Below, piece after piece: positions 4,262 through 47,750 of a stretch of 48,547 nt of DNA (its first letter is position 1; each line of letters begins with the position of its first letter). Source of the stretch: a virus. Where the stretch lies: IMG/VR virus record IMGVR_UViG_3300033183_000554, positions 1-48,547 of that record; one strand, 5' to 3'. The notes beneath the pieces are model-generated. The model was not told where the DNA came from. It saw only the letters and a list, made by a program, of their open reading frames with translations, and did not search any database. A program made the position numbers and the translations under genes.

Positions 4262-4290
4262 GTAGAGCTAGGTTTGAGTGTGGGTGGGAC
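4262..4290 (-). promoter_or_regulatory. Phage promoter motif copy A
   Basis: Read on the minus strand it is GTCCCA-N17-CTCTAC, with -10-like CTCTAC at 4267-4262. It lies 46 bp upstream of the tail-fibre ATG. It is one of seven copies with exactly the same spacing. A promoter function is inferred from position and geometry. Confidence 0.7.
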
Positions 4291-4318
4291 AGGTGAGGTG
4301 AGCGGGTGGCAATTTAGC

Positions 4319-4342
4319 CGTCAATACAGTCGTCAATACAGT
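4319..4342. repeat. 12-bp tandem direct repeat upstream of promoter A
   Basis: CGTCAATACAGT occurs twice in direct tandem, with a decayed third copy (catcaa). It lies between the stop of the gpI-like gene and promoter copy A. It could be an activator site or simple slippage; nothing decides. Confidence 0.6.
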
Positions 4343-4355
4343 CATCAACCTCGTA

Positions 4356-5702
4356 TTAATGAAGGTCCGCGCTCACCCCAAGCTCGCTCACCCCAAGCTC
4401 CCAATGGTCAACAGAAGCGGCCGGCGCCGGCTCAATGAGGTCGACAAAGTGGGTGTGCGCTGGCTTCAGGTACTCCACAAGAGCGCGCAGCTGACGCCGC
4501 TCGGTGTCGGTGAGCGGCACGTTCACCACCACGTCAAAGGCGTAACGCGCGAAGCGATCAGAGGGGCCGAGCGCCCACCCCTCGCCGAGCAGCGACTCAC
4601 CCAAGACGAGCGCCTCGCCACCATATGAGGTCACCGCCTGCAGCTCAACACCAATGAAGAAGCGAACGGCGTTCATGATCCCCCGCGCGGTCCCTTTCTG
4701 GCGGTACATCTCCACTAAGACCGAGGCGAGGCGGCGCTTGCCGAGCGGGTCGAGGAGGAAGGGGAAGGGGTTGCCTAGATCCGAGAGGATCAGATCTAAA
4801 AAGCGCTCAGGTGCCCGCTCGAGATCAAAGAGCTCAGGGAAGCGGTCGAGCTCAACTAAGAGCAGGTCGGTCACCTCTTGCAGGCAGGCGATGAAGCGGC
4901 TCAGGTCTCCTGTCACGTCCTCACGTCGGTTATGCTTCGGGAGCATTGACCAAAGGTCAAAGCGGCGCGACTCGGGTCGAGGGGGCCTGAAGCCTGAGAG
5001 CGCGACGCGATTGAGCGGGGGCGTGATCTGGTTGCCGGATCGGTCTTGAACCCCGCTGACCGTGAGCTCATAGCGCGCGTCGGGGGTCATCTCGGTGTTG
5101 AGGGTGAGCTGGATGAGCGCGCCGTCTACCTGCGCGTCGATGACTGAGACCGGGACAGCGGGTCGGTCGAGCGGCGAGAGCCTTATCTCGCTCAGGTCGC
5201 TCGGGTCACTCAGCTCCACCGGCTCACTGAAGCTGAGCGAGAGGGCGCGCTGCCCTGTCGCTTGTCCGGCGACGAGCTGAGGGGCGGTCTGATCCTCGAT
5301 GGTGAAGCTGTAGCTCGTGTCCATTAACTGCTCTGCGCCGACCACCGCAGACACAACCCGAACCGTGACGCGAGACTCGCTCGCGAAGAAGCTCGTGGGG
5401 TGGAGGGTGACGCGGAGCGTGTCTGAGCTTGAGCTGACAGTCGCTTGAGGGCCATCAAAGCCAGGCTGAAGCTCCACAGCGGAGCGCCCATCAAAGGCGA
5501 GCGCCCCATTGACCCAAGCTCGCGTCGAGGCCCGCGCCACCCCGCTCTCTCCTGTGTCAGTGAGCTCCAAAGAGATGAGCGTGTCGATCGGCACCGCCCG
5601 CTCATCAGGTCCGGGGTCGCGGTTCATGAGGAGCGGCCGCTCAGCGGTGGTGAGGGTCGTGACCGCGTCTACGATCAGCGCTGGGAGCTCAAGCGTCGCC
5701 AT
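4356..5702 (-). CDS. Baseplate protein, P2 gpI-like, with N-terminal Ig-like domains
   Basis: The protein has about 448 residues. The C-terminal ~200 residues (from [15 protein letters not shown]) match the phage tail protein I / TIGR02242 class: [40 protein letters not shown], then [14 protein letters not shown] and a C-terminal LKPAHTHF. The N-terminal 235 residues are beta-rich. They include a SbsA-like Ig repeat ([19 protein letters not shown]) that is usually found on surface proteins. The protein links the J-like wedge to the fibres. The ATG at 5702 lies behind a G-rich RBS; a GTG at 5708 overlaps the upstream stop and is the alternative. Confidence 0.8.
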
Positions 5703-5704
5703 AC

Positions 5705-6109
5705 TCACCCCCCTTCAACGCTTAATCGGAGCGAGACCGTGTGTGTGCCCACGAGCTTGGAGACGTTAGCGGCGAGGTCCGTCAGCGCTCGCTCGCGCCC
5801 CCCCTGACAGCTCGCTTGAGCGAGGGGGACGCCGTCCACGCAGACGCTCACCACCCAACGCCACCCACTCGGCGTGCTCTCGGGTACCCGCAAGCGGAGC
5901 TGGGCGCGCACGAGGTGAGCGCTGGTGAGGTCTACCGCTTGCTGTACCTCGGCGTAGTCACCGTGAGCGAGCTCATGAAGGTGACCGAGCTCTAGGTCGC
6001 CCAGCACAAACACATACTCACCGAGAGGCGCGGCGCTCCCTGTCTGCTCAAGCGCGTTGAGCCGACCTTGTGACGAGCCAAGCCGGGCGTTAAAGGCCGT
6101 GACGCGCAC
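5705..6109 (-). CDS. Hypothetical baseplate-region protein
   Basis: This is a 134-residue soluble protein, mostly beta-rich, with two cysteines (SVCVDG and QASCQGG). It begins with GTG three bases after the TAA of the upstream gene and has no distinct RBS, so it is probably translated by coupling. I do not recognise a family. It lies among baseplate genes, and a structural or accessory role there is likely by context only. Confidence 0.55.
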
Positions 6110-9268: not shown

Positions 9269-9943
9269 TCAAGGCACCGGGATCGCCTCGCGGGCGCTCT
9301 GGAGCGTCTCAATGAGGGCGTCGAGCGGCTCGAGCGCCTCATCGAGCGGTCGACCCGCGAGGTCAGAGAGCTCAGGGAGCTCAGGCCCACCGATCATGCC
9401 AAGGAAGAGGTTCAGTAACCCGATGAGCTTCCCGAGGGAGGCGAGGCCCTTCCCCACGTTCGCCGCCTCTCGCTCAATGTTGTGTTGTGCGCACTGGGTG
9501 ATCGCCATGAGCCCCGCGTCCTCTAGCTCTGTAGCGCGGTCGATCGCTCCAGTGATCTGCGCTGTTTGCTGTTGGAGGTGTAGGAGCTGGCTGCGCACTT
9601 GGCGAAGGGTGTCAATCACGAGGTCAATCGCCCCGAGGATGGTGTAAGGGAGCGAGAGCTGAGGGATGAGCTTGAGGAGCGCGTTGACCTTCTCCGCGAG
9701 CTCAGGAATACAAGCGGCGAGGATGGTCGGGTCGGGTGGAGGTCCAATGACCTCAGGGATCGCCTTGATGCAGTTAAAGAGCGCCACCACTGTGTCTACG
9801 ATGTTAAAGAGCGGCACGAGCGGCGCGAGCGCAGGCTGGAGCTGCTCAAGCAGGTTGATTGACTCCATGCTGACGCCCCCCGGCAGCGTGATGCTGATCG
9901 GGTCCGGTAGCTCTGGTATCTCGATGCAGATCGGTAAGCTCAT
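9269..9943 (-). CDS. Hypothetical baseplate protein, helical
   Basis: The 224-residue protein has a Pro-rich N-terminus and a long, mostly helical hydrophobic body with Leu heptads (LLKLIPQLSLPYTIL, LLNLFLGMIGG). It has no signal peptide. It is the first gene after promoter copy B, with GAGGAG before ATG 9943. I do not recognise the family. Position between spike and gp25-like genes suggests a baseplate or hub component. Confidence 0.6.
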   Translation of the reverse strand: MSLPICIEIPELPDPISITLPGGVSMESINLLEQLQPALAPLVPLFNIVDTVVALFNCIKAIPEVIGPPPDPTILAACIPELAEKVNALLKLIPQLSLPYTILGAIDLVIDTLRQVRSQLLHLQQQTAQITGAIDRATELEDAGLMAITQCAQHNIEREAANVGKGLASLGKLIGLLNLFLGMIGGPELPELSDLAGRPLDEALEPLDALIETLQSAREAIPVP

Positions 9944-9979
9944 CACACAGGCTCCTCGAGTGGGTAGGGGGCTGTGTGG

Positions 9980-10008
9980 GTAGAGCTAGGAGGAGATGGG
10001 AGTGGGAC
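9980..10008 (-). promoter_or_regulatory. Phage promoter motif copy B
   Basis: GTCCCA-N17-CTCTAC on the minus strand, 37 bp upstream of ATG 9943. It lies in the short gap between the spike gene and the baseplate gene unit. Same geometry as the other six copies. Confidence 0.7.
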
Positions 10009-15437: not shown

Positions 15438-15734
15438 TCACCGCCCTTTGCTCGCTTTCTCGATCTCGCGCGCCTCACGCGCTCGCTGCTGTCCGATTCG
15501 CTCCAAGAGCCAGTCGCGGTCGCGGGTGCTGAGCTCTAGAGCCTCGGAGAGGCTCACGTTGAGCCCTGAGCCGCCGTGCTGTCGCCAGCAGAGCTGAAAC
15601 AGCCCCTCCCGCCACTGCTCAAGCGCTAGCTGAGGGAGGAGCTGGCGCGCGCCCGACGTCGGCTCGCCCTGCTCTTCCCCGGCAAGAAGAAACCCTGATC
15701 GAAAGGGAGCTCCACCTCCTGAACTGTGAAGCAC
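15438..15734 (-). CDS. Frameshift extension of the tail assembly chaperone
   Basis: This reading frame overlaps the end of the chaperone gene in the -1 frame. It has no convincing RBS of its own. The useful part begins at 15689, where the GGGTTTC slippery site lets ribosomes enter it. The fused protein would then read [14 protein letters not shown] and continue for 83 residues to EIEKASKGR. It is helical and charged, as in G-GT extensions. By family knowledge the extended form binds tape measure and tube protein during tail assembly. It ends 6 bp before the tape-measure gene begins. Confidence 0.75.
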
Positions 15735-16399
15735 TCAGGGCACTCCACCTCAAGGGCGGTGTCGACACCGCAGTCCACGCGGTCAAACTCATCGACGAGG
15801 TGATCCGCGTCCCGCAAGCTCAGCTCCTCCAAGTAGCGCCGCTTCTCTTTGGGCGAGACCCCCTCGATCTCTACAACGCGCTGCCCAAGCATCGCGGAGA
15901 GCAGCCGGTCCCCCGCGCTCCGCCTCAGCTGAGGGAGCTTGCGCTCGTCAGCGCCGGTAAAGAGCTTGAACCATACCTTGGCGCCCGCGTCGGGGAGGGT
16001 GGTCTCAAATCGGTTACCGCCGCTAAAGCGATCGAGGCTCTCAGGGCTTAGGGTCCTCACCGGTAGCTCATTGAGGTCCAGCTCCCACTCAAAGCGCGCT
16101 CGGCAGCTCACGTTCTGGCAGCCAACGCTAAAGGCATACTCTGGTCCATAGGTGAGCGCTCGGAGCTGGAGCAGCGCATAGAAGCGGTCACCTTGTAAGA
16201 CGCGCCCCCAGTCGATTTCCTGTCCCCCGAAGTCATAGGGCCCTGTCTCCAAGGTCTGCTCCCAACAAGCGCTCAAGAGCGCGTCGAGCTGCCCTCCGCT
16301 CTTCGCGAGCCTTCGGTCAGCCAACACGCGCTCCTCTCGGACCTTCATGCCTCGGAGGACGCCAGTGAGCCCCGAGGGGCAGGTGATGGTGTGGGTCAT
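15626..16399 (-). CDS. Tail assembly chaperone with zinc-ribbon-like cysteines
   Basis: The 257-residue protein begins [21 protein letters not shown]. It holds two Cys pairs, in [15 protein letters not shown] and [13 protein letters not shown], that could form a zinc ribbon. This resembles T4 gp26-like or zinc-binding chaperones of myophage tails. It is directly upstream of the tape measure. The last ~20 residues ([15 protein letters not shown]) are of low complexity, as expected for a product whose biologically relevant alternative is a frameshift near codon 236. It is the first gene after promoter copy C and has GGGAG before its ATG. Confidence 0.75.
15689..15695 (-). other. Programmed -1 ribosomal frameshift site GGGTTTC
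   Basis: In the chaperone frame the codons are CAG GGT TTC, giving the canonical X-XXY-YYZ heptamer G-GGT-TTC at codons 235-237. A -1 slip enters the open downstream frame. About 25 nt further on, CCGACGTCGG is a self-complementary stretch that could form a stimulatory stem. The predicted fused protein has 320 residues. Confidence 0.75.
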
Positions 16400-16458: not shown

Positions 16459-16487
16459 GTAGAGCTTAATCAGGGGTTGAGCGGGAC
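16459..16487 (-). promoter_or_regulatory. Phage promoter motif copy C
   Basis: GTCCCG-N17-CTCTAC on the minus strand (one change in the -35-like hexamer), 60 bp upstream of the tail chaperone ATG. It sits immediately at the left border of the cargo island and restarts tail transcription after it. Confidence 0.65.
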
Positions 16488-18083: not shown

Positions 18084-21000
18084 ATGAGACGTCCCTCCCA
18101 CGCCTTAATCGCCTTGATGACGGCCTGCGCCCTGCTCTTGAGCGCCTCGCCGAGCGTCGCCCAAGAGCCCGACCTTGAGCCCCTCTCGATGGGCTACCAA
18201 GGTCACCTCTCCGATCTCGCAGGTAACCCCTACAACGGGGAGCGCCAGATCACCTTCCGACTTTATGACGCGCTCGTCGAGGGCAACGTCATCTGGGAGG
18301 AGATGTTGGTTGATGTGTTGGTGAGCGACGGGTACTTCCATGTGAACCTCGGCCTCAACCCCGAGGCTCCGCTCCCGCTCGACCGCGCCCCCGACGCCCC
18401 GCTGTTCTTAGCGGTTCAGGTCTCTGGCGATGATGAGCTGATCCCTCGCCTCCGCGTCGGCGCCGCCATCCGCTCCCAGTGGGCCGAGCGCGCCACGCAG
18501 GCCAGCCTCGCCGATCACGCCACTGATGTCAGCGGTGAGGACATCCACCCCTCCACCGTCAGCATCGGCGAGCGCGAGGTGATCAACGCCGAGGGCCAGT
18601 GGGTCGGTGAGCCCATCGAGGGCACCGGCTCCGGCGAGGCCGGCCCTCAAGGGGAGCCCGGTCCTACGGGTGAGCCCGGCCCCCAAGGTGAGGCTGGCCC
18701 TCAAGGGGAGCCCGGCCCCCAAGGTGAGCCCGGGCCTCAAGGTCCCCAAGGTGAGCCCGGCCCCCAAGGGCTCAGCCCCTCCCCCGCCGAGGTCTCCGCC
18801 GAGCTCGCCTCCGATGAGGTCTTCCGCTCCAACCTCGCCGATGACTTAGCGCTCAATCACCCTGACGCGGTCCGTGGCCCCCAAGGTGAGGCTGGCCCCC
18901 AAGGTGAGGCCGGCCCTCAAGGTCCCATCGGTGTGCAGGGCGCCCCCGGCGCGATCGGCCCACAAGGGGTCGGGGTCGCCGGCGCCGTGGTCAACACCTC
19001 CGGTCAGCTCGAGGTTACGCTCACTAACAGCGCCGTCCTCAACGCCGGCTCTGTTATGGGCCCTCAAGGGCCTCAGGGGCCCCAGGGTGTCCAGGGCGCC
19101 GCCGGGCTCAACGGTCAAGATGGCGCTCAAGGGCCTGCGGGTCCTCAAGGTGAGCGTGGCCCCATCGGGCCCGCCGGTGACGGGCTCTCTCTCGATCAAG
19201 ACTCCGATGGGGACGGCTTCCAAGACTGGGTCGAGTCCATGGTCGGCTATGACCCTTATAATGAGCTCGATTTCCCCATCGATGATGACCAAGACGGCGT
19301 CCCCGATCTCCTCCGTGGCCCCCAAGGGCCTCAAGGTCAACAAGGGCTCCGCGGTGAGCGCGGTTTGCAGGGTCTCCAAGGGGCGCCTGGTACGACCGGC
19401 GCCCAAGGGGTTGGGGTAGCAGGCGCCCTCGTGAACGCCTCCGGTCAGCTCGAGGTCACTCTAACCAATAGCAATGTGCTGAACGCTGGGAACGTAGTCG
19501 GCCCTCAAGGTCCCCAAGGCGCTCAAGGGCTCCAAGGGGCCACCGGCGCCACCGGCGCCCAAGGTGAGCCCGGCGCCACCGGCCCTCAAGGCCCTCAGGG
19601 TCCTATCGGCCCCGCCGGTGATGGCCTCTCCCTCGATCAAGACACCGACGGGGATGGCTTCCAAGACTGGGTTGAGGCGATGGTCGGCACCGATCCTCAA
19701 AGTCCTTCATCTCTCCCTGTTGACGCGAATCAAGATGGGATCCCTGATGTGATGCGTGGCGCTCAAGGCCCTGTTGGTCCTCAAGGTGAGCAAGGGGCCC
19801 AAGGTGATGTAGGGCCCGCCGGTCCTCAAGGTGAGCAAGGGCTCCAAGGGCTCCAAGGTCCTCAAGGTGAGCAGGGGCTTACAGGTCCTCAAGGTGACCA
19901 AGGTGGTATAGGGCCCGCTGGTCCTCAAGGTGAGCAGGGGCCTCAAGGGGAGCAAGGTCCTGAAGGAGCCCAAGGGCCTCAAGGCCCCGCTGGCCTTAAA
20001 GGTGATCAAGGCGAGCAAGGTGTTGCAGGGCCACAAGGCCCCGCAGGCGAGTCGATTGATCTCAACCTCGATACAGATGGTGACGGCTTCGCTGATTGGG
20101 TCGAGGCGATGCTCGGCTACGCACCTGACACCGCGCTCGACACGCCTCCTGACGCGAACGGCGACTTCGTAGCCGATACGCTCGTAGGCCCTCAAGGTGC
20201 GACCGGACCTCGCGGTCTTCGTGGGTTGCAGGGTGAAGCGGGCGTCGGTGTCAACGCCGCAGCAGTGACTGCGGGCGGGGAGCTTCTCCTCACGATGACG
20301 GACAGCACCGAGATCAACGCGGGCTCTGTGATCGGGCCTCAAGGCCCACAAGGCGCTCAGGGGCCTGCAGGTCAGCAAGGCGTCCAAGGTCTACAAGGTG
20401 AAGCGGGTCCAGCGGGTCCTCAAGGCGCTCAAGGTCCTGCGGGCGCTCAAGGCGAGGCAGGTCCTCAAGGCGACGTGGGCCCTGCAGGTCCACAAGGCAC
20501 ACCCGGCGCTGATGGGGTGAGCGTGTCAGGCGCTAGCGTCAACGCCTCAGGTGAGCTCGTCCTCGCGCTCTCTGACAGCACCACGCTCAACGCCGGTCAT
20601 GTTGTAGGGCCTCCAGGGCCTCAAGGTGAGCAAGGGGTTCAAGGTGAGCAGGGTTTACAGGGTGAGCAAGGGGTTCAAGGTGAGCAGGGTCCTCAAGGTG
20701 AGGCTGTGAACCTCCAGACTGACTCAGACAGTGATGGCTTCGCCGATTGGGTCGAGGCGATGGTCGGGACTGATCCCGCCGATGGCGCTGATAAGCCTGT
20801 TGACCTCGATGCTGATGGGGTCCCTGATCAGCTTAAGGGCGCTCAAGGTGAGCAGGGGCCTGCAGGACCTAAGGGTGATCAAGGTGATCAGGGCGCTCAA
20901 GGTGTAGCGGGCCCCGCTGGTGCTGTAGGTCCTGCTGGTGCGGTTGGCCCCGCCGGTCCTCAAGGGGAGCAGGGTGTTCAAGGCGAGCAGGGGCCTGAGG

Positions 21001-22442: not shown

Positions 22443-22732
22443 TTGATAACGTAAAAGAGGATTATTGGAATTATTCCGCGGTGTCTGCTCTCAATCATCC
22501 CCAACAATGAATCAATAAACTAACCAACAAGGGACTGATCAACACACTCCATCTTTATGCAAGAACTCCAGGGAGACACTAAGTTTTTGCATATTGAAAC
22601 TAGCTTTTGAACTCACTTCCTAACATGTTTTGAAATAATAAGTTTAACACCCTCCCTTCATCGAATGCCAACCTGTTCGATTTGAACTAACAGCTCTACG
22701 GAACTGAATCTTACTCACAAAAGATCTTTGCA
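22443..22732. other. AT-rich intergenic region
   Basis: The 290 bp between the collagen-like gene and the next + strand gene are AT-rich. GGAATTATTCC soon after the collagen-like stop codon is a short palindrome that could contribute to termination. I see no clear sigma-70 promoter, RNA gene or repeat. Confidence 0.5.
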
Positions 22733-23374: not shown

Positions 23375-23403
23375 AATTGTGAGCTTACTTAATCAGCATA
23401 ACC

Positions 23404-23451: not shown

Positions 23452-23453
23452 CA

Positions 23454-23638: not shown

Positions 23639-23798
23639 ACGGCCTCAGTCTAGACGCATCTCCCCCACTCCACTCACCAAATCGACGAGGGATTAAATCG
23701 AAATCCGAGCTAACATTATCAGTGGGAGCCAAACGGCCTGGGAACAACGGTGCAGAGCAAGCTCTGAAGGATCAACAACGAGACAGATACTGGGTGCG

Positions 23799-33401: not shown

Positions 33402-34675
33402 GCTCGCTCCTCCTCGGCGGTGGGCTCAGGCACGCGGCGCGCGGAGCCTCCAATCGAAAACCCGGTGAGCTCCCCTCGCTTCACGCGCTCCCAGAGCTCA
33501 TCAGAGTGCACGCGGACCGCGAGCAGCCACGTCCCCTTAGCGACGCTCAGCTCACCGACCTGGAAGGGGGTAGGCGCCACGTAGCTCTCTAGCACCTTCA
33601 CCTGATCATTGACGCGCAGCTCATGCATGAGCCCGAGCCCACCAAACTCCTCCATAAAGCGGTGGGCCGCTTGGCGCACCTCCTCATGTGAATAGATGTC
33701 GCCCTGCGCGTCCACCTGCTCAGGGACTAGGACGACGCCAAGCACATAGCGCTCGTCATTTGGGTCCACCCCCTTAATCAGCTCACAGACCTTCTCAATG
33801 GGCGGATCTTCGAGCAGCTCTGCAGACTCAAGGTCTTTCTCTACAAACTTGTAGTTGGCGACGAGCAGCTGGGTGAGCATCTTCGGGCCGCCGACGCCAC
33901 GCATGGACCCAATTGTGCGCGGGGTGCGGACGCGCTTGATAAAGTAGCCCGCGTCCTTGAGCAGCTTAGGGAGCTTCCCGCGCACCCCATAGGTCATCAG
34001 CCACTTACCCTTAAGCGACTTGAGCACCTCAAAGAAGCGCTCCTCATCAAAGGTCGACTCCCCGACGTTCACGTTATAGCCGGGGTAGGGTGGGTCGAGG
34101 AAGAACACGGTGTCTGCGCTATCATGCTTACGGACCACCGGCTCATAGTCTCCCGAGTAGACCTTGACCTGAGCGAGCCGCGAGCCATGCTGCTCTAGCC
34201 TGCTTATGGTCTTGGCCTCAATCCCCTGCCCGCTCGGACTAAAGCTCTTGCCGCGCAGCTTCCCATACGAGAAGTGGGTGAGATAAAGGAAGCGGTGCAG
34301 TCGCTCTAGCTCCCCGCGCGGTTGAGCGTCGATGAGCCCCTTGAAGGTCGCGAGGTCGCCAGTCCACTTCATCCCTCGGAGCTTATTGAGCTTGGCGGGG
34401 GTGAGCTTCTGGATCACCTGAAAGGCCTGTGCGATCTCAGGGTCAGCGTCATTGATGACCTCAACCTCCGAGGCCTCCTTCTCAAAGAGCACCGCCGCCG
34501 AGCCCGCGAAGGGCTCCACGTACACGCGGTGCGGGGGGAGGAGCTTAGCGAGCCGCGGCGCGAGGCGCTTCTTGCCGGCTGGCGACCCCCAGATCGTCTT
34601 TTCTATTGTCTCAGGGGAGCAGCTCTCTAAAATTTCACGCGCCCTCTGCAGGGCCTCCTGTGCCTGCTCAGACAT
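33398..34675 (-). CDS. DNA adenine methyltransferase (D12 class) fused to XkdF-like prohead protease
   Basis: The 425-residue protein has two domains. Residues about 25-285 are a D12/Dam-type N6-adenine methyltransferase: motif [13 protein letters not shown] (53-64), motif [13 protein letters not shown] (191-201), and QLLVANY near the end. Residues about 308-412 match the phage XkdF serine-protease family: [39 protein letters not shown] and [11 protein letters not shown]351 and S407 are candidate catalytic residues. It precedes the scaffold and capsid genes, exactly where a prohead protease belongs. ATG 34675 is preferred, with AAGGGG 7 nt upstream. The fused methyltransferase is unusual: see findings. 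Confidence 0.85.
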
Positions 34676-34976
34676 GACGCAGCCCCTTCGGGTCACGCCC
34701 CCAGGTCAGCGCTACACCCGAGGTGTCCGCCATATCACGGGGCCACTGCTCATCGCTCACCTCTTCAAGCTCACTCTTTGTGGTAGGCGTAGCGCTCTCA
34801 AGCGCGCTCCGCATGACGTTCAAGAGCCCGGTGAGCTCCTTGTTGAGCCCTGCTGAGATGGGCTGATCACCCGCCCGGTTCAGTTGATCCACCACCGCCC
34901 CGAGCCGGTCGCTCACTCCATGAAGTGCGCGCGCGACCTGTCGCGCTGTCGGTGTCCTGCTCTGCTCATGCGCCAT
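34668..34976 (-). CDS. Small hypothetical protein, first gene of the head operon
   Basis: The 102-residue helical protein begins MAHEQSRTPTARQVARALHG. It contains an amphipathic region (SDRLGAVVDQLNRAG, KELTGLLNVMRSALESA). It overlaps the fusion gene and is first behind promoter copy D. Function unknown. Confidence 0.6.
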   Translation of the reverse strand: MAHEQSRTPTARQVARALHGVSDRLGAVVDQLNRAGDQPISAGLNKELTGLLNVMRSALESATPTTKSELEEVSDEQWPRDMADTSGVALTWGRDPKGLRHV

Positions 34977-35023
34977 ACGCTCGCTCCCGTGTTTAGTGTG
35001 TAGGCTGAGAGGCCTTCACGGGG

Positions 35024-35052
35024 GTAGAGCTAGCTTGGGGGGTGGGTGGGAC
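35024..35052 (-). promoter_or_regulatory. Phage promoter motif copy D
   Basis: GTCCCA-N17-CTCTAC on the minus strand, 48 bp upstream of ATG 34976. It starts the long protease-capsid-sheath-tube operon, which runs to the terminator at 24917. It lies just left of the RloAB cassette. Confidence 0.7.
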
Positions 35053-35206: not shown

Positions 35207-36553
35207 ATGATCATCAGCTTCTCAGTTGAGAACTGGCTCTCCTTTCGAGCGCCGGTCACGTTCTCCATGATCGCGAGCAGGGAGCGCCAGCACGGCGACC
35301 GAGTCACAAAGCTCCGTAAATATAAGACCCGCGCGCTCCCAATCGCGGCGATCTATGGGGGGAACGCGTCAGGTAAGACGAACCTCTTTAAGGCGCTGAG
35401 CTTCGCCAAGATGTTCATCGTGAAGGGGACCCAACCTGACAACCTGATCCCTGTTGAGCCCTTTCGTTTAGACGGCCAGTCTGTCGATCAACCCTCACGG
35501 TTCAGCTTTGAGCTCTTGATTGGTGAGGTGATCTATGACTTTAGCTTCGCGGTGAGCCGCGCCAAGGTCCTTGAGGAGCGCCTCGTGGAGATCACGAGCT
35601 CTAGTGAGCGGGTGCTCTATGATCGGCGTAAGGGCGCCCCGAACTTCGACCGCTCGCTCGCGAGAGACCAGCTCCTCAAGTTTGCTTTTCAGGGCACGCG
35701 CGACAACGTGCTGCTCTTAACGAACGCCGTCTCTCAGCGAGTGGATCACTTTAGGCCTGTCTATGACTGGTTCAAGAGCACGCTCACGCTCATCGCCCCA
35801 GACTCGCGTTTTGAGCCCTTCGAGCGCTTTTTTGATGAGCGCCATGAGCTCTACTCAACCATGAACGAGCTCCTCCCGCTGCTCGACACAGGGATCACCA
35901 AGCTTGGGATAGAGGAGCTACCTTTCGAGAACCTGCCGCTGCCCGACACGCTGAGGCAGAGCCTCCAAGAGGAGGTTAGAGAGGGCATGAGCGTCCGCCT
36001 GTTGACCGAGCCGATGCATGAGCGCTTTGTGGTGACCCGACGAGATGGGGCGCTCATCGCTCAAAAACTTGTGACGTATCACACTAAAGCGGACGGCACC
36101 GAGGTTAAATTCGACCTCCGCCAAGAGTCCGATGGCTCTCAGCGGGTCATCGACCTGCTCCCCGCCCTCCTCGACCTGTCTGCTCAACGCTCCAAGCGTG
36201 TTTATGTGATTGATGAGATCGACCGCAGCTTACACACGATGCTCACGCGTCAGCTCCTCGAGGCGTACTTGGGGAGCTGCTCCACCGAGTCGAGGAGCCA
36301 GCTCCTCTTCACGACCCATGACGCCCAGCTCCTCGATCAAGAGCTCCTGCGTCGTGATGAGATGTGGGTCATTGAGCGCGGCGCTGCGGGTGGCTCAAGC
36401 TTAAGCTCCTTCAGTGAGTTTAAGGACGTGCGCTACGACAAAGACATCCGTAAGAGCTACCTTCAAGGGCGCTTAGGCGGCGTCCCTCGGCTCCGCCTTG
36501 GTGGCGCGCTCAGTGAGCTTTACGTCGGTGTCGCTCGTGAGGAGATCAGCTGA
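35207..36553 (+). CDS. AAA-type ATPase, RloA/AbiLi-like defence protein
   Basis: The 448-residue protein is an ABC/SMC-like ATPase of the AAA_15/AAA_21 type. Walker A is GGNASGKTN (51-59). The signature-like segment [18 protein letters not shown] and Walker [15 protein letters not shown] are in the second half, followed by LLFTTHD. It starts [16 protein letters not shown], typical of these anti-phage ATPases. It is on the + strand against the phage genes and has its own AT-rich promoter. It shares a stop/start overlap with the RloB-like gene. It is thought to sense infection and control the partner nuclease. PARIS AriA and OLD-like proteins are related alternatives; the partner decides for RloB. 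Confidence 0.85.
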
Positions 36554-37161
36554 TGCCTTCTAAGAGGCGCAGCTTTCGCCGCCCACTTGGAGAGCGGCGG
36601 TATCGTAAGCTGTTTTTGATCGCGGTAGAGGGCTTTAAGACAGAGCCTCAATATTTCGCGCTCTTCAATGACCAGCGCTCCGTGATTAGGGTCCACTGCC
36701 TTAAGGGGAATCATGACAGCTCCCCACCTCAAGTGCTCAAGCGTATGAAGGAGCAGCTTCGCCGAGAGTCACTGAGGTCCTCAGATGAGGCGTGGCTCGT
36801 CGTTGATAAAGACCAATGGACAGAGGAGCAGCTCACCCTGCTTCACTCCTGGGCTCAGGTGCGTGATCAGTATGGCTTCGCGCTGAGTAACCCCAAGTTT
36901 GAGTATTGGCTTTTGCTTCACTTTGAAGACGGCGCAGGTGTCGCCTCTTCAAAAAATTGCGCTGAGCGCCTAAAGAGGTACCTCCCTGATTATAATAAGG
37001 GGGTCGACGGTCGACATATCACGCGAGAGCGTGTAGAGGCGGCAGTGCAGCGAGCGAAGCGTCGGGATCACCCTCCCTGTGCAGATTGGCCACGCGCGCT
37101 CGGGGGGACTACGGTGTATCGCCTCGTGGAGGGCCTCCTTCGTGGGGTCGATGAGAGCTAA
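36553..37161 (+). CDS. RloB-like (AbiLii-type) TOPRIM nuclease effector
   Basis: The 202-residue protein shows the RloB pattern. [11 protein letters not shown] (25-35) supplies the acidic residue of the TOPRIM-like core. VVDKDQW (83-89) is the second acidic site. [13 protein letters not shown] (112-124) is the third hallmark. A basic C-terminal region follows. In RloA/RloB and AbiL systems this is the effector, probably acting on nucleic acid, with the ATPase as sensor. The start overlaps the ATPase stop. It ends six bases from the stop of the convergent MuF gene, so the cassette fits tightly into the phage operon border. Confidence 0.8.
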
Positions 37162-38512: not shown

Positions 38513-40340
38513 CGTCACCTCCCTCGCGCCTCGGTCGATCAAGCCAGGACTCAAACTCATCGCGCGGCACCAACACTCGCTCTGTCTGCTCATCAAGGTA
38601 GCGACGCGCGAGCTGCGCTCGGCGCTGAGAGAGCCTCGACTCCTCTGAGCTGAGCTCCTCGCGGAGCGTGAGCAGGCGACGCGCGTCACCCAACAGTGAG
38701 CGAGGCTCCTCTGCCCTCTTCTCTGCCTGAGATCGAAGGTCCTGAACACCGGTCTGGATACCAGCCAAGGTGAGGGTGATGGGGCGCTTCGTCCAATCAT
38801 CTCCGATCTTGCGGAGCTCGCGGTTGAAGATGTCACCCGCTAAGACGCGCCCCTCCTCAGGGGTGAGCACGCCCACACGCACCAGCTTCTCGACCATCGC
38901 CGTCATGCGCTCAGGGTCGCGAGTGACTGGGGTCTGTGAGCGGAAGCGCCAAAAGCGGATCCCCATGTCGGCGAGGAGCTTTCGGTTGATGAGGTAGTCA
39001 AACTCATCTCGCTCGGGCTGAAACACTTGATCCTCTGCGAAGCGCAACGCGGACTCAGCGGTCGCGCGGTTAAAGTCTTTGCTCTCTCCACGGAGCAGGC
39101 GAGGGAGGCGAAAGGCCCCGCCTACCTTGTCGATGTTCCGCTCATCATAGAGCTGAAAGAGGGCGTCTTGCTGTTGAGCCTCAGTGAGCGGTCGCAGCTC
39201 GATCTTAGCGCGGCTGTCGCCTTGCCCACCCCCCTCCGCTTCGAGGATAAGGATCTTGTGGAAGTTGCTCTTACCCTTCAGGTTCTCCTCAATAAAGCGC
39301 TCGATGCGAGGCACGGAGGACTCTGAGAGCCGGCCTCCCGAGATGAGCAGAGCGAGCGGTGGCACGCTCTTGTTCTCAAAGTAGAGGTAGTTGACCTCCT
39401 CCATCTGCCGAGAGCCTAAGACCGCGAGGAGCGAGCCGACCCAGCGCGGGACACCATAAGGCGTACGTGGGGAGTGGATCGCGAAGTGCAAGAGCTCTGT
39501 AGCGGGCGCGTCGTTACTGTCTGTGCGTCGCAGCTGCTCAGCGGACTGATGAGCCTCGCCCGTGTGTTTTGAGATCACGCGAGGGTCACCAAAGGCCTTA
39601 AAGTACACTCGATCAGCTCCGTGCACCTGCACAAAGCGCCGCGTCCGCCTACGCGCTGGGATCGACTCGAAGGACACAGGCGAGACCTGGACTCGGTCTA
39701 TGACCTCAACCGGCGTTGGATCAATCGGCATCAACCGCACCGTGTGTGAGGGCACATACACGAGCCGCGCGAGCTCCCCTCGGCCGTCGCGCAAGACCTC
39801 CCAGAAGGCGTTCCCAGTCGTCTCTAGGTCCTGTCGAGTCCGTCGGCGCAGGTCGACAAAGGAGTGATCAAAACAGCAGAAGTCAAAGAAGGACTGGAGC
39901 CGCGCTCGCTCAACACGCGCGAGGTGCATGAGCGCCCGCTTTCGCGCGCTCACCTCCTCATCGGTGGCCTCAAGCGTCAAGCCCTCCTCAAGCTCCCCAC
40001 GCTCCCGCGCCGCGTAGCGCTCAAGGAAGATCGTGTCGGCGACGCGCGCGTCTGCGTCTTCATCTTCAAAGTCGATCGCAGGGTCAAAGCGATGCCCGAA
40101 GCCGTCGATGTTGACCGCATAGGCGTCTAGGTTCTGTCGGAGGGCGTTGGAGTGCTCCACCAAGAGGCACAGAGCGGTCGGGTCATAAGGCGGCTCTAGC
40201 GCGCCCGCCGACTGAAAGACGCTCGCGGCCTCCTCCGCCTCTAGGCGCGCTGAGTCAGCGACGTCTTGGCCTACCACCACCGCCTTCAGGACGCTCTGCA
40301 GCCGCTCATGCGCTCGCGCCGCGCCCTCGACTCCGCTCAT
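38499..40340 (-). CDS. Portal protein (PBSX-type)
   Basis: The 613-residue protein has family segments: LCLLVEHSNALRQNLDAYAVNIDGFGH, DLETTGNAFWEVLRDGRGELARLVYVP, FKAFGDPRVIS, ELLHFAIHSPRTPYGVPRWVGSLLA, and IEENLKGKSNFHKILILEAEGG. The C-terminus is helical and charged. It forms the dodecameric DNA channel at one vertex. It follows a 70-residue gene with a TGATG overlap. Confidence 0.92.
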   Translation of the reverse strand: MSGVEGAARAHERLQSVLKAVVVGQDVADSARLEAEEAASVFQSAGALEPPYDPTALCLLVEHSNALRQNLDAYAVNIDGFGHRFDPAIDFEDEDADARVADTIFLERYAARERGELEEGLTLEATDEEVSARKRALMHLARVERARLQSFFDFCCFDHSFVDLRRRTRQDLETTGNAFWEVLRDGRGELARLVYVPSHTVRLMPIDPTPVEVIDRVQVSPVSFESIPARRRTRRFVQVHGADRVYFKAFGDPRVISKHTGEAHQSAEQLRRTDSNDAPATELLHFAIHSPRTPYGVPRWVGSLLAVLGSRQMEEVNYLYFENKSVPPLALLISGGRLSESSVPRIERFIEENLKGKSNFHKILILEAEGGGQGDSRAKIELRPLTEAQQQDALFQLYDERNIDKVGGAFRLPRLLRGESKDFNRATAESALRFAEDQVFQPERDEFDYLINRKLLADMGIRFWRFRSQTPVTRDPERMTAMVEKLVRVGVLTPEEGRVLAGDIFNRELRKIGDDWTKRPITLTLAGIQTGVQDLRSQAEKRAEEPRSLLGDARRLLTLREELSSEESRLSQRRAQLARRYLDEQTERVLVPRDEFESWLDRPRREGGDDEGE

Positions 40341-40552
40341 CAGCGCGCCCAGACATAGGCGACGAGGCCTGAGGGGGTGAAGGATAAGGCTCGCTCTTGA
40401 ATATATCCGGCAGCCCTAAGCGCCGTTTGAGCCGCAGCGCGAAGACCTTCCAGGCTGCTCGCCTCTACGCTAAGGCTCGGTCCGGCTTGGGGGCTTTGAG
40501 TTGGGTGTTGATCAGAGACAATGAACACCTTGAGCTCTCGACGATGAGGCAT
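40340..40552 (-). CDS. Small hypothetical protein preceding portal
   Basis: The 70-residue protein begins MPHRRELKVFIVSDQHP. It has an alpha/beta course (SLSVEASSLEGLRAAAQTALRAAGY, SFTPSGLVAYVW). It is first behind promoter copy E and overlaps portal by one base. Function not recognised. Confidence 0.55.
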   Translation of the reverse strand: MPHRRELKVFIVSDQHPTQSPQAGPSLSVEASSLEGLRAAAQTALRAAGYIQERALSFTPSGLVAYVWAR

Positions 40553-40594
40553 GTACGGGCTCCATTGGTGACGGGGTGGGGGTCAGTCAACGGA

Positions 40595-40623
40595 GTAGAG
40601 CTAAAAGTGAGGGGGGCTGGGAC
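40595..40623 (-). promoter_or_regulatory. Phage promoter motif copy E
   Basis: GTCCCA-N17-CTCTAC on the minus strand, 43 bp upstream of ATG 40552. It starts the portal/MuF unit directly downstream of the AbiE cassette. Confidence 0.7.
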
Positions 40624-40715: not shown

Positions 40716-41543
40716 TCACTTGTCTGACATCTCGTTCCCTCTCCAAGGCTCGCCAGGCAGCTTAGAGACAAGCTCGGTGAGCACATGCTCAAAGGCTTGA
40801 TCAAACTCCCATGACAGGCCTGGGCGGAGTAAGATATCCATATCTTGACGAAAGTCTTTACGTCCTGACTTCTCATATAGGTTCGCTTCAAATTGAGCGC
40901 GTGTCACTGAGTGGCCCCCCTCCGCCATATATCGGTTAAAGCAGGTGAGTAGGGCCTCGGTGTTCACGTTCTCGGCTTTCAACGCATACCAAAGATCAAA
41001 GAGGTCACGCCCCTTCTTGCGCTGGTATAGCGCGCGCAGCTTTGTTCCCAAAAGCTCATCAATAGAGAAACTTGTCACATCTGATTGTCCCCTAAACCAC
41101 TGGCTATTAACCTCAAAAGGCACCTTAATGAGCCCTAGCTCACTAAAATGCTCACGTGAGTTGATCTCGATCTTTAACCTTAGCCTCATCGGAGGCGAGT
41201 CACTTGACTCAAAGCGATACACAAGATTAACGCGCCCTTCCTTAAACTTACGCTGAGGTTCTCCGAGCCATGGGTCGAGAGTGTTGCGCAGGAGCGTGAG
41301 GGTCTCCCCGATCGCCTCAGGGTTAATTTGAACCAAATCAATGTCCTCAGAGTAACGAGCTGCGGGACGCAGATAGAGCTTATAAAGGGCTGTACCACCT
41401 CGAAATGCGAGCCGCTCAGCGAGCGCTGGTACAGAGTAAATCTCTACGAGCGCTCGACTGATCACGAGGTCTTGCTCTACCATCCAGTCTGCTGTCCATG
41501 GCGCCTCTCGCCTCCACTCAACAATCGCCTGCTCTCGTATCAT
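40716..41543 (-). CDS. AbiEii-type nucleotidyltransferase toxin
   Basis: The 275-residue protein begins MIREQAIVEWRREAPW. The nucleotidyltransferase core is FRGGTALYKLYLRPAARYSEDIDLVQ, with GG at 49-50 and the DxD-like S-E-D-I-D at 65-69. It is followed by LGTKLRALYQRKKGRDLFDLWYAL, the second family motif. AbiEii/MenT-type toxins transfer nucleotides, often to tRNA 3' ends, and stop growth. I use ATG 41543, which overlaps the antitoxin stop (ATGA). A longer start would need to lie inside the antitoxin gene. Confidence 0.85.
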   Translation of the reverse strand: MIREQAIVEWRREAPWTADWMVEQDLVISRALVEIYSVPALAERLAFRGGTALYKLYLRPAARYSEDIDLVQINPEAIGETLTLLRNTLDPWLGEPQRKFKEGRVNLVYRFESSDSPPMRLRLKIEINSREHFSELGLIKVPFEVNSQWFRGQSDVTSFSIDELLGTKLRALYQRKKGRDLFDLWYALKAENVNTEALLTCFNRYMAEGGHSVTRAQFEANLYEKSGRKDFRQDMDILLRPGLSWEFDQAFEHVLTELVSKLPGEPWRGNEMSDK

Positions 41544-42325
41544 ATATCTGGATCCACTTCGGTGTTGATCGCGACCTGCCATCTTGAGTCTCTGGGTGTC
41601 CCCTCGATCTCTAACCATGAGGCGAGCGCGACGGTGAAAAGCTTACGGTTAGCGAGCACCTCATCTAGACGGAGCGCGAGCTCCTCTTGCTCGACGAGCG
41701 TCAATAAGTAGCCGAGCCGTTGAACCCAAGCAGTAGGCGCGCGCGTCGCTTCAGACACGAGCGCGTCGCCATTAATCGACTCAGCGAGCTCAGATAAGAC
41801 GGTCGCGACGTTATCGAGGAAGCCACACTGCTCCGGGTAACCGACGAGCTCAAGAGCTGTCGCGGCGGCTGAGGCGACGCGGAGCAAACCTGTTGGCGTC
41901 TCGCGCTCAGTCACTGAGGTCCTCTCCATATTCTGACGAGCGGAGAAGTTGACCTGGACCCCACCACACTCAAGGTCGCGTCTTGAGCGTCTGTTCATCA
42001 CCTGAAACGCCATCGGGGCTTGGTGTGAGGCGCCGTGATAAGCGGCGGCGCTCAACAAAGTCACATAGTAAGGCTCGTTTAGGTGGTCCATGAGCTGAGG
42101 GATAAATTGCTCGGGTGGCAGGCACTCTAACCGTCGATATTTAGGTGGGAGCACGACATAAAAGCCTCGTTGAGGCATTGCGATGTGCCCCTTTGCTTTG
42201 AGCCTTCGCAACTGCGCGTGGATCGCGGTGATTGACTTACCGAGCGCTTGGACGATCTCATCGATTGTAAAGATGAGCTGCCCATTCATCTGTAAGCCCT
42301 CGATATAGTGAGCTGCGTTAGTCAC
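41540..42325 (-). CDS. AbiEi-type antitoxin/autoregulator
   Basis: The 261-residue protein has an N-terminal winged helix (QLIFTIDEIVQALGKSITAIHAQLRRLKAKGHI, then MPQRGFYVVLPPKY). An AbiEi-type antitoxin domain follows (YYVTLLSAAAYHGASHQAPMAFQVM, and RVASAAATALELVGYPEQCG). In AbiE systems this binds inverted repeats before its own gene and neutralises the toxin without a stable complex. It is coupled to the toxin gene and has its own promoter and operator-like repeat upstream. Confidence 0.85.
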   Translation of the reverse strand: MTNAAHYIEGLQMNGQLIFTIDEIVQALGKSITAIHAQLRRLKAKGHIAMPQRGFYVVLPPKYRRLECLPPEQFIPQLMDHLNEPYYVTLLSAAAYHGASHQAPMAFQVMNRRSRRDLECGGVQVNFSARQNMERTSVTERETPTGLLRVASAAATALELVGYPEQCGFLDNVATVLSELAESINGDALVSEATRAPTAWVQRLGYLLTLVEQEELALRLDEVLANRKLFTVALASWLEIEGTPRDSRWQVAINTEVDPDI

Positions 42326-44019: not shown

Positions 44020-44634
44020 ATGCCCCACTACGCCCACCGCACTACACGCGCGCCCCGCACCCTCTCGGAGCGGGAGCAACGCGACCTGCTGAACGTCACC
44101 GCCCACCACAGAGATGGGCTCCGTGACCACGTCCTGTTTAGCCTCGCCCTCGGGACCGGTCTGCGAGCGCATGAGCTCCTCGCACTCAATGTGGGGGACG
44201 TCTTTAAGCAAGGTCGCGCGCGCCGGCGCGTTCAGCTTAAGGTATTTAAGCGCAGCAACGCGGACGCAGAGAGCCAAGAGGTGATCTTGCCAGATAACGT
44301 CCGCGCGAAACTTGAGAAGCTGTATGAGTGGAAGCGGCAGGCGGGGCAAGCCCTCGACCCAGAGGCTCCACTCTTTATTAGCCTTAAAGGGAACCGCCTC
44401 TCGACGCGCCAGGCGCGCACCACGTTCAAGCGTTGGCAGGAGCGCGCCGACTTTGACCGCAGCTTCAGCTTCCACGCCCTGCGCCACACCGCCTGCACCA
44501 ACCTCTACCGGGCCACCCGCGACATTCGGCTCACTCAGCGCTTCGCGAGGCACAAGGCGATGAGCTCGACGGCGATCTACACCCACCCGACCGATGAGGA
44601 CTTGATCCGCGCGCTCCATGACATCACCTGCTGA
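44020..44634 (+). CDS. Short tyrosine recombinase (catalytic domain only)
   Basis: The 204-residue protein contains the full catalytic set: R49 in [16 protein letters not shown], a Lys near 74-77, H152 and R155 in [11 protein letters not shown]178 in RFARHKA and Y187 in AIYTHPT. It lacks most of the usual N-terminal SAM-like core-binding domain (normal integrases exceed 300 residues). It reads against the phage genes and lies between the terminase genes. It could be the phage integrase, a dimer resolvase or an inversion enzyme. The neighbouring 450-bp gap is a candidate attachment region. Confidence 0.85.
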
Positions 44635-45828: not shown

Positions 45829-45839
45829 CGATCAATCGG

Positions 45840-46178
45840 TCAGCGTTGGCGGAGCGCCCACCACTCCTCGACGAGCTCGAGGAAGTCATCGAGGGCGAGG
45901 GTGACGGTGGCCTCTGATCGGTCATCTCTGACGATCGCGAGCGGGACTCGGCCCACTGATGAGGCCTCGTTGGCTTGTCGGAGCGCGGCGCGAATGTTGG
46001 GGCGCTTACCACGCTTAGCCTCTATCCAGAACACCGGACATTCGACGTCAGCCGCCTCTTCGCCAGAGCGCGCTTGAAAGCCTCGCCTCACATCAGCGTC
46101 AGGCATCACCTCTCGAAACCGCCGCACGAGCTCACGCTCCCACTGCGCGCCTTTTCGTCTCGACCTCGCGCCGCTCAT
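45840..46178 (-). CDS. Hjc-like PD-(D/E)XK nuclease
   Basis: The 112-residue protein shows the Holliday-junction-resolvase-like nuclease core: E14 in [13 protein letters not shown]44 in [12 protein letters not shown], and E53-x-K55 in WIEAKRG. Then comes a helix with [13 protein letters not shown] and the strand PLAIVRDD. It would resolve branched DNA before packaging. It overlaps the RecB-like gene by ATGA. Confidence 0.8.
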
Positions 46179-47350
46179 AGCGCCTCCTTCGCTGAAAATC
46201 TCTGTGAGTGACGCCGCTCAACGACCGTCTCAAGCTCAGCCTTGAGCAAGGTCACGCGGTCCTGACCAATGCGGGCCGGGAGCGACTTGAGGAGCTTGGT
46301 GAGTGACCTGTTGTCTATGCTTGAGAGCTCAGCAGCCAGCTGAGCGGGTTGATCGCCTGTCGCTTGAGCGATCAGGGCGAGCGTCGGTGCGAGCGGATAA
46401 GACTTGGAGCAGGCGCTTGACATACGGTAGCGCACCCCGGCGAGCGTGAGCTCATCGTGAGCCTTAAGGTGGGCCTTGAGCACCGCCTCAAGCTCTTGCT
46501 TTCGGGTGTTGAGCACCTTGCTGAGCCGCGCCACCTCCTCACGCTCTCGGGCGACGCTCTCAAGGTCGCTGAGGTCTGTGCAGACGGCGCTGCGCTCACC
46601 TCTCAAGGCCGACGCGAAGGCGGGACAGCGCTGGCGATGATCGCAGTAGACACAGCTGCTGTTGAGGCGCGCGGGGAACTCTCGGGCCTGCTCGGTCATA
46701 CGCCCCATCGTCTCCACATAAGCAAGCGCGCCGCTGAGCTGCGCCTCGCTCCGCGCTGTGCTCACCTTGAGGTCATGTCGCAGCATATCAAAGGAGAGAC
46801 GGACTCTCTTAGCCCAGGGCCAGAGCTGCTGAGCGGCGAGGTGATAGAGCGACAGCTGGAGGCTTGAGTCTACCTCGTCGCGCCGGAAGAGGAGGCGGTT
46901 GGTCTTGTAGTCAATGACCTCCACCGTCTCATCGTCTATTCGATCTACTCGGTCGATGAAGCCCAAGACAGTAAAGGGCCCTACTGAGAGCTCAAAGCGC
47001 TGCTCAACGGCCAAGACGTCTCGGTGATCGACGTGACCCTGACGGCGCACGTATGAGCGCAAGAGCGAGAGGCCCTCCTCAAAGACGTCCACACCCGAGA
47101 GCTCTGCCTCAGCCCAAGCCTCTCGCCACAGCTCTGTCGCCCGCTCCTCAGAGAGCGAGCCCTCCCGCTCCTCATCAATGTGCTCTCTCATGAGCAGCTC
47201 TAAAGCGTGGTGAACCGCCTTCCCAAAGCGGAGCGGGACACCGGGCTCCGCGCGGAGCTTGTCGATGTAGTGGAGCTTAAAGCTCAGCGGGCACTGCTCA
47301 AATCGAGACAGGCGAGAGTAGGACAGGTGCTTGTTCTTGAAGCCTGGCAT
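46175..47350 (-). CDS. RecB/Cas4-like PD-(D/E)XK exonuclease with Fe-S cysteines
   Basis: The 391-residue protein has [19 protein letters not shown] with C20, [19 protein letters not shown] (D133), EVIDYKTN (D147, K149) and a C-terminal [10 protein letters not shown] (C233, C236, C242). The four cysteines match the Fe-S cluster of AddB/Cas4-type nucleases. It probably processes DNA ends in recombination-dependent replication. It is first behind promoter copy F. Confidence 0.9.
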
Positions 47351-47385
47351 AGCGCTCCCATAGTGCAGGTGAGCCCTCGGTCGGG

Positions 47386-47556
47386 TTATGGGCGTAGAGC
47401 CGGCTCACCTGCAGCCTGGGACGGGTTAGGGGGCGCGCTGGGGGAGGCGTTAGGCTTAATCACCCCGCGCAGCGCGAGCGCTGTGATCTGGCGAGCGATG
47501 ATGTGGGCGATGAGCATGCGGCGCTCATCAGTTGTGAAGTCTCGGTGTACGTTCAT
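47386..47556 (-). CDS. Small phage protein (56 aa)
   Basis: This short gene encodes MNVHRDFTTDERRMLIAHII and a further helix, then a Pro/Ala-rich tail. ATG 47556 has GGAG 5 nt upstream and lies 35 bp from promoter copy G. It ends within the region of promoter copy F. Function unknown. Confidence 0.5.
   Translation of the reverse strand: MNVHRDFTTDERRMLIAHIIARQITALALRGVIKPNASPSAPPNPSQAAGEPALRP
47394..47422 (-). promoter_or_regulatory. Phage promoter motif copy F
   Basis: GTCCCA-N17-CTCTAC on the minus strand, 44 bp upstream of the RecB-like ATG, inside the 3' end of the small gene at 47386-47556. Confidence 0.7.
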
Positions 47557-47750
47557 GTCTGCTCCGTAAGGGCGTGGTTGCCATGGGGGGGTAGAGCCTT
47601 AACCACACAGCGGTGGGACTTTGAGCGAGCTTTGAGCGCCCCCATGAGCGGCGATTCGCTCTTGAGGGAAACGTCAACTCTCCTCTGGTCAACGTGAGAG
47701 GCGTTCACATCAAACTCCTTCATGATCATGTGTTTAGAGATGGCCACCAT
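47553..47750 (-). CDS. Possible small coding frame
   Basis: A frame of up to 65 residues ends in an ATGA overlap with the 47556 gene. An internal GTG behind AAGGAG would give about 50 residues. Promoter copy G lies inside it. The composition is unremarkable and no family is seen, so it may not be a gene. Confidence 0.22.
   Translation of the reverse strand: MVAISKHMIMKEFDVNASHVDQRRVDVSLKSESPLMGALKARSKSHRCVVKALPPHGNHALTEQT
47591..47619 (-). promoter_or_regulatory. Phage promoter motif copy G
   Basis: GTCCCA-N17-CTCTAC on the minus strand, 35 bp upstream of ATG 47556. It is the rightmost copy. Confidence 0.68.

Follow-up and report, generated by a model that had tools for sequence, protein, structure and literature searches.

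Seven spaced DNA elements, GTCCC(A/G)-N17-GCTCTAC, stand ahead of minus-strand operons in the virus record IMGVR_UViG_3300033183_000554 of IMG/VR, of which we analysed positions 1 to 48,547 (the window, 48,547 nucleotides in full). These elements are probably late promoters for a phage-encoded sigma factor that, at most sites, double as translational insulators against read-through mRNA. The case for late promoters as such is strong. Computed directly were the boxes, their spacing and conservation, their clustering in prophages, a site-specific pairing, at most sites, between the bases that follow the second box and the next ribosome-binding or start region, and the predicted costs of opening the ribosome-binding site. 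As part of this explanation, the gene content points to a temperate, contractile-tailed phage of Myxococcota, of which the window probably holds a fragment.

Pattern searching of the window recovered seven exact copies of the element, all on the minus strand and with no others (0 forward and 7 reverse matches; backward control pattern, 0), reproducing every position, coordinate and strand listed in an earlier reading made without database searches (the sequence-only reading). The element also emerged without supervision, as TCCCA-N17-CTCTA was the top-ranked fixed-spacing 5-mer pair in the window (7 seen, 0.03 expected), a count comprising six motif sites and a coding near-copy at 30225, with the GTCCCG site at 16459 falling outside it. 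Across 200 windows simulated with an order-3 Markov model, two motif matches arose. The near-copy (30225-30253, ending CTCTAT) sits within a coding gene, has an exact counterpart within the orthologous gene of genome G015 (locus L229) and nearly the same letters at G017:C15, and we read it as conserved codons. Spacers measured 17 bp at 7/7 sites, in agreement with the identical spacing first described, and CTCTAC lay 34-59 bases from the start codon, within the 34-60 bp given before. One detail of that description failed: GC was said to precede CTCTAC, whereas only a G is invariant (7/7), within the dinucleotide AG at five sites and GG at two, and never GC. Sigma-54 promoters carry GG at -24 and GC at -12, 10 bp apart; this candidate was rejected, as the sequence-only reading had also held, on boxes 17-18 bp apart that lack TGGCAC/TTGC. 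In having two conserved boxes spaced by 16-18 bp ahead of late operons, the elements share the arrangement of late promoters of the kind found in Salmonella phage 7-11.

Judged by their terminases, 86-89% identical (L180 over half of the protein), loci L138, L139, L140 and L180 were the closest relatives among the collected genomes. Most of the 49 loci came from metagenome-assembled genomes named as myxobacteria or Deltaproteobacteria, and the labels Rubrivivax (L140) and Trueperaceae (L180) we take to be binning errors. The motif search in relatives proposed with the sequence-only reading found the same boxes at corresponding operon starts in four close relatives; spacers there were 17 or 18 bp long and unconserved in sequence, extending to these sites the claim that only the boxes are conserved. 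Because the relatives' prophages are fragmented, presence was counted over genomes where the place was seen: a site occurred at the portal-operon start in 4/4 genomes, at the PD-(D/E)XK nuclease gene in G014, G016 and G017, at the ortholog of 34668-34976 in G014, G015 and G016, at the ortholog of 15626-16399 in G015 and G016, and at the ortholog of 2651-4216 in G015, with the 9980-type site one gene further upstream in G015 and G017. A pattern scan of IMG/VR returned 82 stretches, of which L015, L016, L022 and L075 were kept as members by eye and 78 treated as unrelated. Searches for the exact motif found no copy in 13 viral records whose terminases are related, nor in loci L090-L117 when spacers of 15-19 were allowed. 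GGCCTC-N17-AGAACT, from viral relatives G002 and G003, was considered as a shifted form of the motif and rejected, since its contexts look coding. Tandem CTCTAC sites 80-82 bp apart were also seen outside late operons (L214:16376 and 16456; L223:5239 and 5321), the L214 pair at the start of an AbiEi homolog.

The sequence-only reading had overlooked a covarying stem that runs from just after CTCTAC to the Shine-Dalgarno sequence. Usually, the 6-8 bases right after CTCTAC are complementary to the Shine-Dalgarno/start region of the next gene, and the letters differ per site, as in CCCGTG/CACGGG (35024), CACACAG/CTGTGTG (9980) and CCCATA/TATGGG (47394). Pairing was scored at 26 sites, 7 from the window and 19 from relatives, with start codons set by hand; four tandem sites without an assigned start (two each in L214 and L223) and repeated leaders, among them L227, were left out. 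The sites' own pairing scored 403, compared with 310 +/- 14 when 3' regions were exchanged (0/20000 permutations). The same held for the window alone (103 vs 71.4 +/- 8.2; 20/20000 permutations) and for 18 sites of relatives alone, from which L075 was omitted as near-identical to the window (283 vs 237 +/- 12; 3/20000 permutations). When the 5' segment was slid along the sequence, z peaked at 6.9 at +1 and fell to -1.0 at +5, with weaker signals (z 2-3) in the spacer and at -29; the window alone gave z 3.6 at both -1 and +1, and 2.9 at -43. Mean pairing was 14.7 at the seven window sites and 9.9 at 33 motif-free gene starts. Stems scoring at least 14, of the type known from T4 gene e, were present at 21/26 sites (5/7 in the window). 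The 5' arm began at +1 or +2 in 21/21 of these, and the 3' arm ended 7-12 bases before the start codon in 20/21, abutting the start codon at 9980. Even a single position varied in both partners, pair +4 being C-G in 8 stems, G-C in 7, T-A in 2, G-T in 2 and mismatched in two.

In the proposed mechanism, GTCCC(A/G) would serve as the -35 box and (G)CTCTAC as the -10 box for host RNA polymerase carrying a divergent sigma factor, encoded by a phage gene outside the window. With gp36 of phiEco32 and gp47 of phage 7-11, transcription starts 6-9 bp from the promoter element, in an account whose upstream/downstream wording is inconsistent (PMC8948821). A start about 6-9 bases past CTCTAC would, by analogy, leave the arm (+1 to +8) between the -10 box and the start and so delete it from promoter-born RNA, and it is this deletion that leads us to read most sites as late promoters that silence read-through mRNA. 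RNA arriving from upstream, for instance out of the AbiE genes or an adjacent operon, would carry the arm, fold and hide the ribosome site; promoter-started RNA would lack it and hence be translated. Late genes would accordingly stay silent until the phage sigma is made. Predicted costs of opening the Shine-Dalgarno site are consistent with this scheme, averaging across the 26 sites 8.5 kcal/mol when RNA reads through, 4.6 when it begins at +7 and 6.3 when the arm is shuffled (Wilcoxon 2e-6 and 5e-6), and 8.3, 4.9 and 6.5, respectively, in the window alone (p 0.039 and 0.023). At the 33 motif-free gene starts, long and truncated RNA differed by just 0.34. Were transcription instead to start at or before +1, the same phage-sigma promoters would carry the stem in their own mRNA, for example as a 5' hairpin that stabilizes the message or controls its translation, and the constant arm position would then fall at the mRNA 5' end. 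We consider this unlikely, given the start distance published for phage sigmas (PMC8948821, as far as its account extends) and given that structural genes would defeat their own expression if their mRNA concealed its Shine-Dalgarno sequence.

Elements of related design also occurred in more distant prophages, which retain GTCCC and the spacing, with CTTTGC, CTCTGC or GCGTTT as the -10-like box. Unsupervised counting in these prophages, whose genes (like those of the distant pairing set below) were called by a simple script, found GTCCC-N18-CTTTG in 15 upstream regions from 8 loci, where 0.09 would be expected, and likewise TCCCA-N18-CGTTT in 7 regions from 7 loci, against an expectation of 0.05. 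Matches to GTCCCC-N17/18-CTTTGC fell on the terminase-bearing contig for 7/9 of the genome's matches in G021, 6/7 in G018, 3/4 in G016, 3/6 in G019 and 3/7 in G020, a clustering on prophage contigs that speaks against a host regulon.

The sequence-only reading had suggested looking beyond the window for a phage sigma, and the relatives' prophages yielded a candidate reader. Nineteen host sigma proteins, reached via PF04542, were aligned and used to search prophage open reading frames (ORFs), and an iterated profile started from the weak matches converged on 28 ORF matches in relatives, some being the same gene in overlapping loci. The profile found no member of this sigma-like family among the window's ORFs, in line with the earlier statement that the window holds no such factor, and in the four close relatives PF04542 brought up no sigma from the prophage contigs. 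Full-length members, of about 255-345 residues, divide into A-type and B-type: five B-type members tested matched PHROG 36246 (phrog_36246), listed as of 'unknown function', and three A-type members tested gave weak matches to sigma-factor PHROGs. Homology to sigma factors was detectable by hhalign against the 19 host sigmas (probability 95.5, E 1.3e-8, 179 columns), with A-type alone at 94.0, B-type alone at 86.5 and a terminase control at 0.1 (E 0.48). AlphaFold models of B-type L142 (predicted local distance difference test, pLDDT, 76; predicted template modelling score, pTM, 0.53) and A-type L159 (pLDDT 79, pTM 0.53) retrieved, among the PDB structure matches listed (50 of 217 for one and 50 of 224 for the other), sigma factors or polymerase complexes throughout; in the complexes we take the listed chain to be sigma. 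In G014, the gene (C12:14655-15521) follows the final CTCTAC site (10599) at a distance of about 4 kb, and a LexA-like repressor gene lies upstream of it on the same strand. It has counterparts in G017 (96% identity) and G016 (82%). The family was not extended by scanning viral contigs for the L220 protein, which confirmed no relative, or by searching 50,697 phage records with two of its members by tblastn, which found none. L148:3740-4291 was rejected as the phage factor because it looks like an ordinary extracytoplasmic function (ECF) sigma. At L220:15521-15763 and L276:4478-4783, the sigma-like gene is accompanied by a small gene, overlapping or following it, and a promoter-class site lies within the sigma gene's end; the small gene perhaps encodes a partner or an anti-sigma.

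Promoters for a host alternative, ECF-type sigma would share such a box layout, which resembles that of ECF promoters, and G014 and G015 do have 45 and 43 Sigma70_r2 matches. We nevertheless regard this as improbable: most CTTTGC-class matches fall on the prophage contig in three of the five genomes (half or fewer in the other two), and the sigma-like family, carried by 10/377 sampled genomes of the phylum according to the PHROG model, has a distribution that fits a mobile element.

The two types of sigma-like protein go with different promoter classes. After removal of repeats, 23/38 sigma-like ORFs had a GTCCC-N17/18-GC site at or just past their own 3' end, compared with 78/1283 called genes. 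Where such a site was present, it carried GCGTTT in 6/7 A-type and 0/16 B-type ORFs (Fisher 7e-5, a value that overstates independence because several ORFs are close relatives); the B-type sites were GCTTTGC in 5, GCTCTGC in 6, GCTCTCC in 2, GCTTCTG in 2 and GCTTTGA in 1. A tree roughly sorts the B-type genes by -10 class, with long branches and a poor fit of L149 and L164. Several phages (L142, L149, L174 and others) have a GCGTTT site upstream of the B-type gene and CTTTGC/CTCTGC sites downstream of it, which suggests a two-step sigma cascade. On the fuller version, in which two paralogs share the GTCCC -35 box, read GCGTTT and CTTTGC/CTCTAC -10 boxes, respectively, and act together with a stem that would insulate late genes in lysogeny, we are evenly divided.

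These associations also bear on two explanations that dispense with a phage sigma. The element might be transcribed from an upstream promoter and act as RNA, in a processing, antitermination or protein-binding leader; in the window, all of its copies are indeed found at operon borders on a single strand, and an adjoining stem is an RNA feature. Two boxes 17-18 apart around an unconserved spacer are better suited to DNA recognition, however, and a -10-like box that varies with the sigma paralog makes an RNA leader very unlikely. A DNA-binding activator working with a host sigma, as described for Mu C, is compatible with the boxes taken alone, but we give it very little weight in view of the sigma-like family that occurs alongside the promoters and whose subfamilies differ in their associated -10 boxes. 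The phage-sigma reading thus remains preferred, and the dedicated sigma-dependent late promoter that the sequence-only reading had put forward, beside an activator-dependent one, gains support from boxes and spacing kept in relatives, from prophage clustering and from a phage-encoded sigma-like family.

Several observations weigh against this reading or against its generality. Five of the 26 sites have no stem scoring at least 14 (47591, 16459, L218:16876, L220:10599 and L228:3966), the match to the Shine-Dalgarno region at 16459 being just the 4-bp TCCC/GGGA. Truncation to +7 raises the predicted opening cost at 16459 from 8.4 to 12.0 and brings no gain at L016, L228 and L220:10599, and the cost is independent of the arm at 47394, L016, L218:16876 and L219. 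Pairing is weaker in the distant set, with z 1.7 at +1 and a peak of 4.1 at +4, as calculated from 36 sites with machine-assigned starts (56 matches, 46 of them non-redundant and 36 with a usable start). Equal frequency of the motif in unrelated host sequence was named at the outset as evidence against promoters; the sites proved to be concentrated on prophage contigs, but whole genomes G014-G017 contained 4, 11, 7 and 5 matches to the CTCTAC pattern against 3, 6, 4 and 0 to the backward pattern, a modest excess, so that enrichment lies in the location of the sites.

The identity of the reader is likewise qualified, as the link between the sigma-like protein and these promoters is correlative and drawn from sequence comparison. 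No Foldseek match of either model reaches E 0.001, a profile search of PDB sequences yields no sigma factor, and no Pfam sigma model passes its cut-off on prophage ORFs except for the ordinary ECF protein of L148. Regions 1.2-2 of sigma-S align over 106 residues (2.8 A, Z 9.3; both domains together, about 25 A root-mean-square deviation), at a Z below the value of about 13 to which the aligner warns that matches of helical proteins may be fortuitous. G015 has CTCTAC sites, but its copies of the L220 protein are only 28-29% identical. Seven of the ten genomes matched by the PHROG model were new (G081, G174, G199, G344, G360, G374 and G382), and in six of them the fetched regions held at most one GTCCC-type match, with no clear excess over scrambled controls; a fixed pairing of protein and promoter is therefore not supported in the most distant members. 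The fetched regions of G344 held three GTCCC-type matches, two with GCGTTTG and one with GCGTTTC, while the PHROG matches of G174 and G382 were marginal and the family profile found no member in their fetched pieces.

Coordinates of the seven sites, their stem arms and their counterparts in relatives are collected in Table 1.

Table 1. Putative late promoter sites of the window, predicted stem arms (numbered from the base after CTCTAC) and corresponding sites in related loci
Feature	Position	Strand	Description	Sites in relatives
Late promoter site 1	47591..47619	-	GTCCCA, 17-bp spacer, GCTCTAC; precedes 56-residue ORF 47386-47556; without Shine-Dalgarno stem	Counterpart L220:10599, ahead of small ORF, similar by eye
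Late promoter site 2	47394..47422	-	Ahead of PD-(D/E)XK nuclease gene 46175-47350	Orthologous: L220:9357, L224:12959, L226:5590
Site 2 stem, 5' arm	47387..47392	-	CCCATA, +2..+7, pairs with 47357-47362	
Site 2 stem, 3' arm	47357..47362	-	TATGGG, overlaps Shine-Dalgarno sequence	
Late promoter site 3	40595..40623	-	Ahead of 70-residue ORF 40340-40552 and portal gene; directly downstream of AbiE pair	Orthologous: L217:1973, L220:1385, L224:4755, L227:2838
Site 3 stem, 5' arm	40588..40594	-	TCCGTTG, +1..+7, pairs with 40561-40567	
Site 3 stem, 3' arm	40561..40567	-	CAATGGA, overlaps Shine-Dalgarno sequence	
Late promoter site 4	35024..35052	-	Ahead of gene 34668-34976 and protease, capsid and tail genes	Orthologous: L217:6962, L222:176, L224:1011; similar leaders in L015, L022, L075
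Site 4 stem, 5' arm	35017..35022	-	CCCGTG, +2..+7, pairs with 34986-34991	
Site 4 stem, 3' arm	34986..34991	-	CACGGG, overlaps Shine-Dalgarno sequence	
Late promoter site 5	16459..16487	-	GTCCCG variant; ahead of T4-type baseplate protein gene 15626-16399	Orthologous: L219:2894, L225:828
Late promoter site 6	9980..10008	-	Ahead of gene 9269-9943 and baseplate genes	L218:16876, L228:3966; one gene further upstream
Site 6 stem, 5' arm	9972..9978	-	CACACAG, +2..+8, pairs with 9944-9950	
Site 6 stem, 3' arm	9944..9950	-	CTGTGTG, adjoins start codon, not on Shine-Dalgarno sequence	
Late promoter site 7	4262..4290	-	Ahead of gene 2651-4216	Orthologous: L218:10135; similar leader in L016
Site 7 stem, 5' arm	4253..4260	-	Contains CCTCTG, +2..+9, pairs with 4228-4235	
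Site 7 stem, 3' arm	4228..4235	-	Contains CAGAGG, overlaps Shine-Dalgarno sequence	

At site 2, inspection by eye shows an 11-base complementarity between the spacer sequence GCAGGTGAGCC and GGCTCACCTGC in the leader; as this pairing would cross the CCCATA/TATGGG stem, a pseudoknot is possible. Pfam identified portal, capsid, sheath, tube and baseplate genes of a contractile-tailed phage on the minus strand of the window and, between the operons, AbiE, AAA/RloB and integrase modules. The AAA_21/RloB pair (35207-37161) and the AbiE pair (40716-42325) stand at late operon borders beside promoter sites, and a short tyrosine recombinase gene on the plus strand (44020-44634), kept in L220, L224 and L226, adjoins the terminase gene. 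The protein encoded at 33398-34696 combines D12 adenine methyltransferase and XkdF-like protease domains, and 18084-22442 encodes a 1452-residue collagen-like protein with GPQGE-type repeats. The GC content drops to 43% at 22001-24000, beside which ORF 23799-24803 resembles by eye a transposase associated with repetitive extragenic palindromic sequences, with no Pfam match.

Among the open-access papers listed by the literature searches, no title or abstract opening described these promoters or the sigma-like family. The analysis offers a testable role for a PHROG annotated as of unknown function and associates the two sigma-like subfamilies with one promoter class each, in which a variable -10 box behind a constant -35 box provides natural pairs for studying sigma-promoter co-divergence. 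If true, the insulator model would account for the ability of a lysogen to express cargo genes such as AbiE immediately upstream of the portal operon.

Among known systems, the late operon of the Bacillus subtilis prophage PBSX is driven by Xpf. This protein, a sigma factor with regions 2 and 4 (PMC10141391), resembles the present candidate, by description alone, in being a prophage-linked sigma factor. Salmonella phage 7-11 is similar in having a bipartite promoter ahead of late genes, GTAAtg-16-aCTA, read by the host core with the divergent phage sigma SaPh711_gp47 (PMC8948821). It differs in its boxes, and the parts of PMC8948821 that describe it contain no read-through stem; the sigmas, too, are compared by description alone. 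The stem has its precedent in T4 e, soc, 49, I-TevI and segB and in Aeh1 mobE, where the longer RNA from upstream folds its ribosome site into a hairpin; the late promoters of e and I-TevI are so positioned that the RNA they produce has no 5' strand of the hairpin and is translated (PMC3014915, PMC2988022). As far as those accounts extend, the device belongs to particular genes in T4, whereas here a like layout is seen at most late operon starts, with differing arms, in prophages and also directly behind an AbiE pair, which suggests that a trick of particular T4 genes is in use at most late operons of one prophage family.

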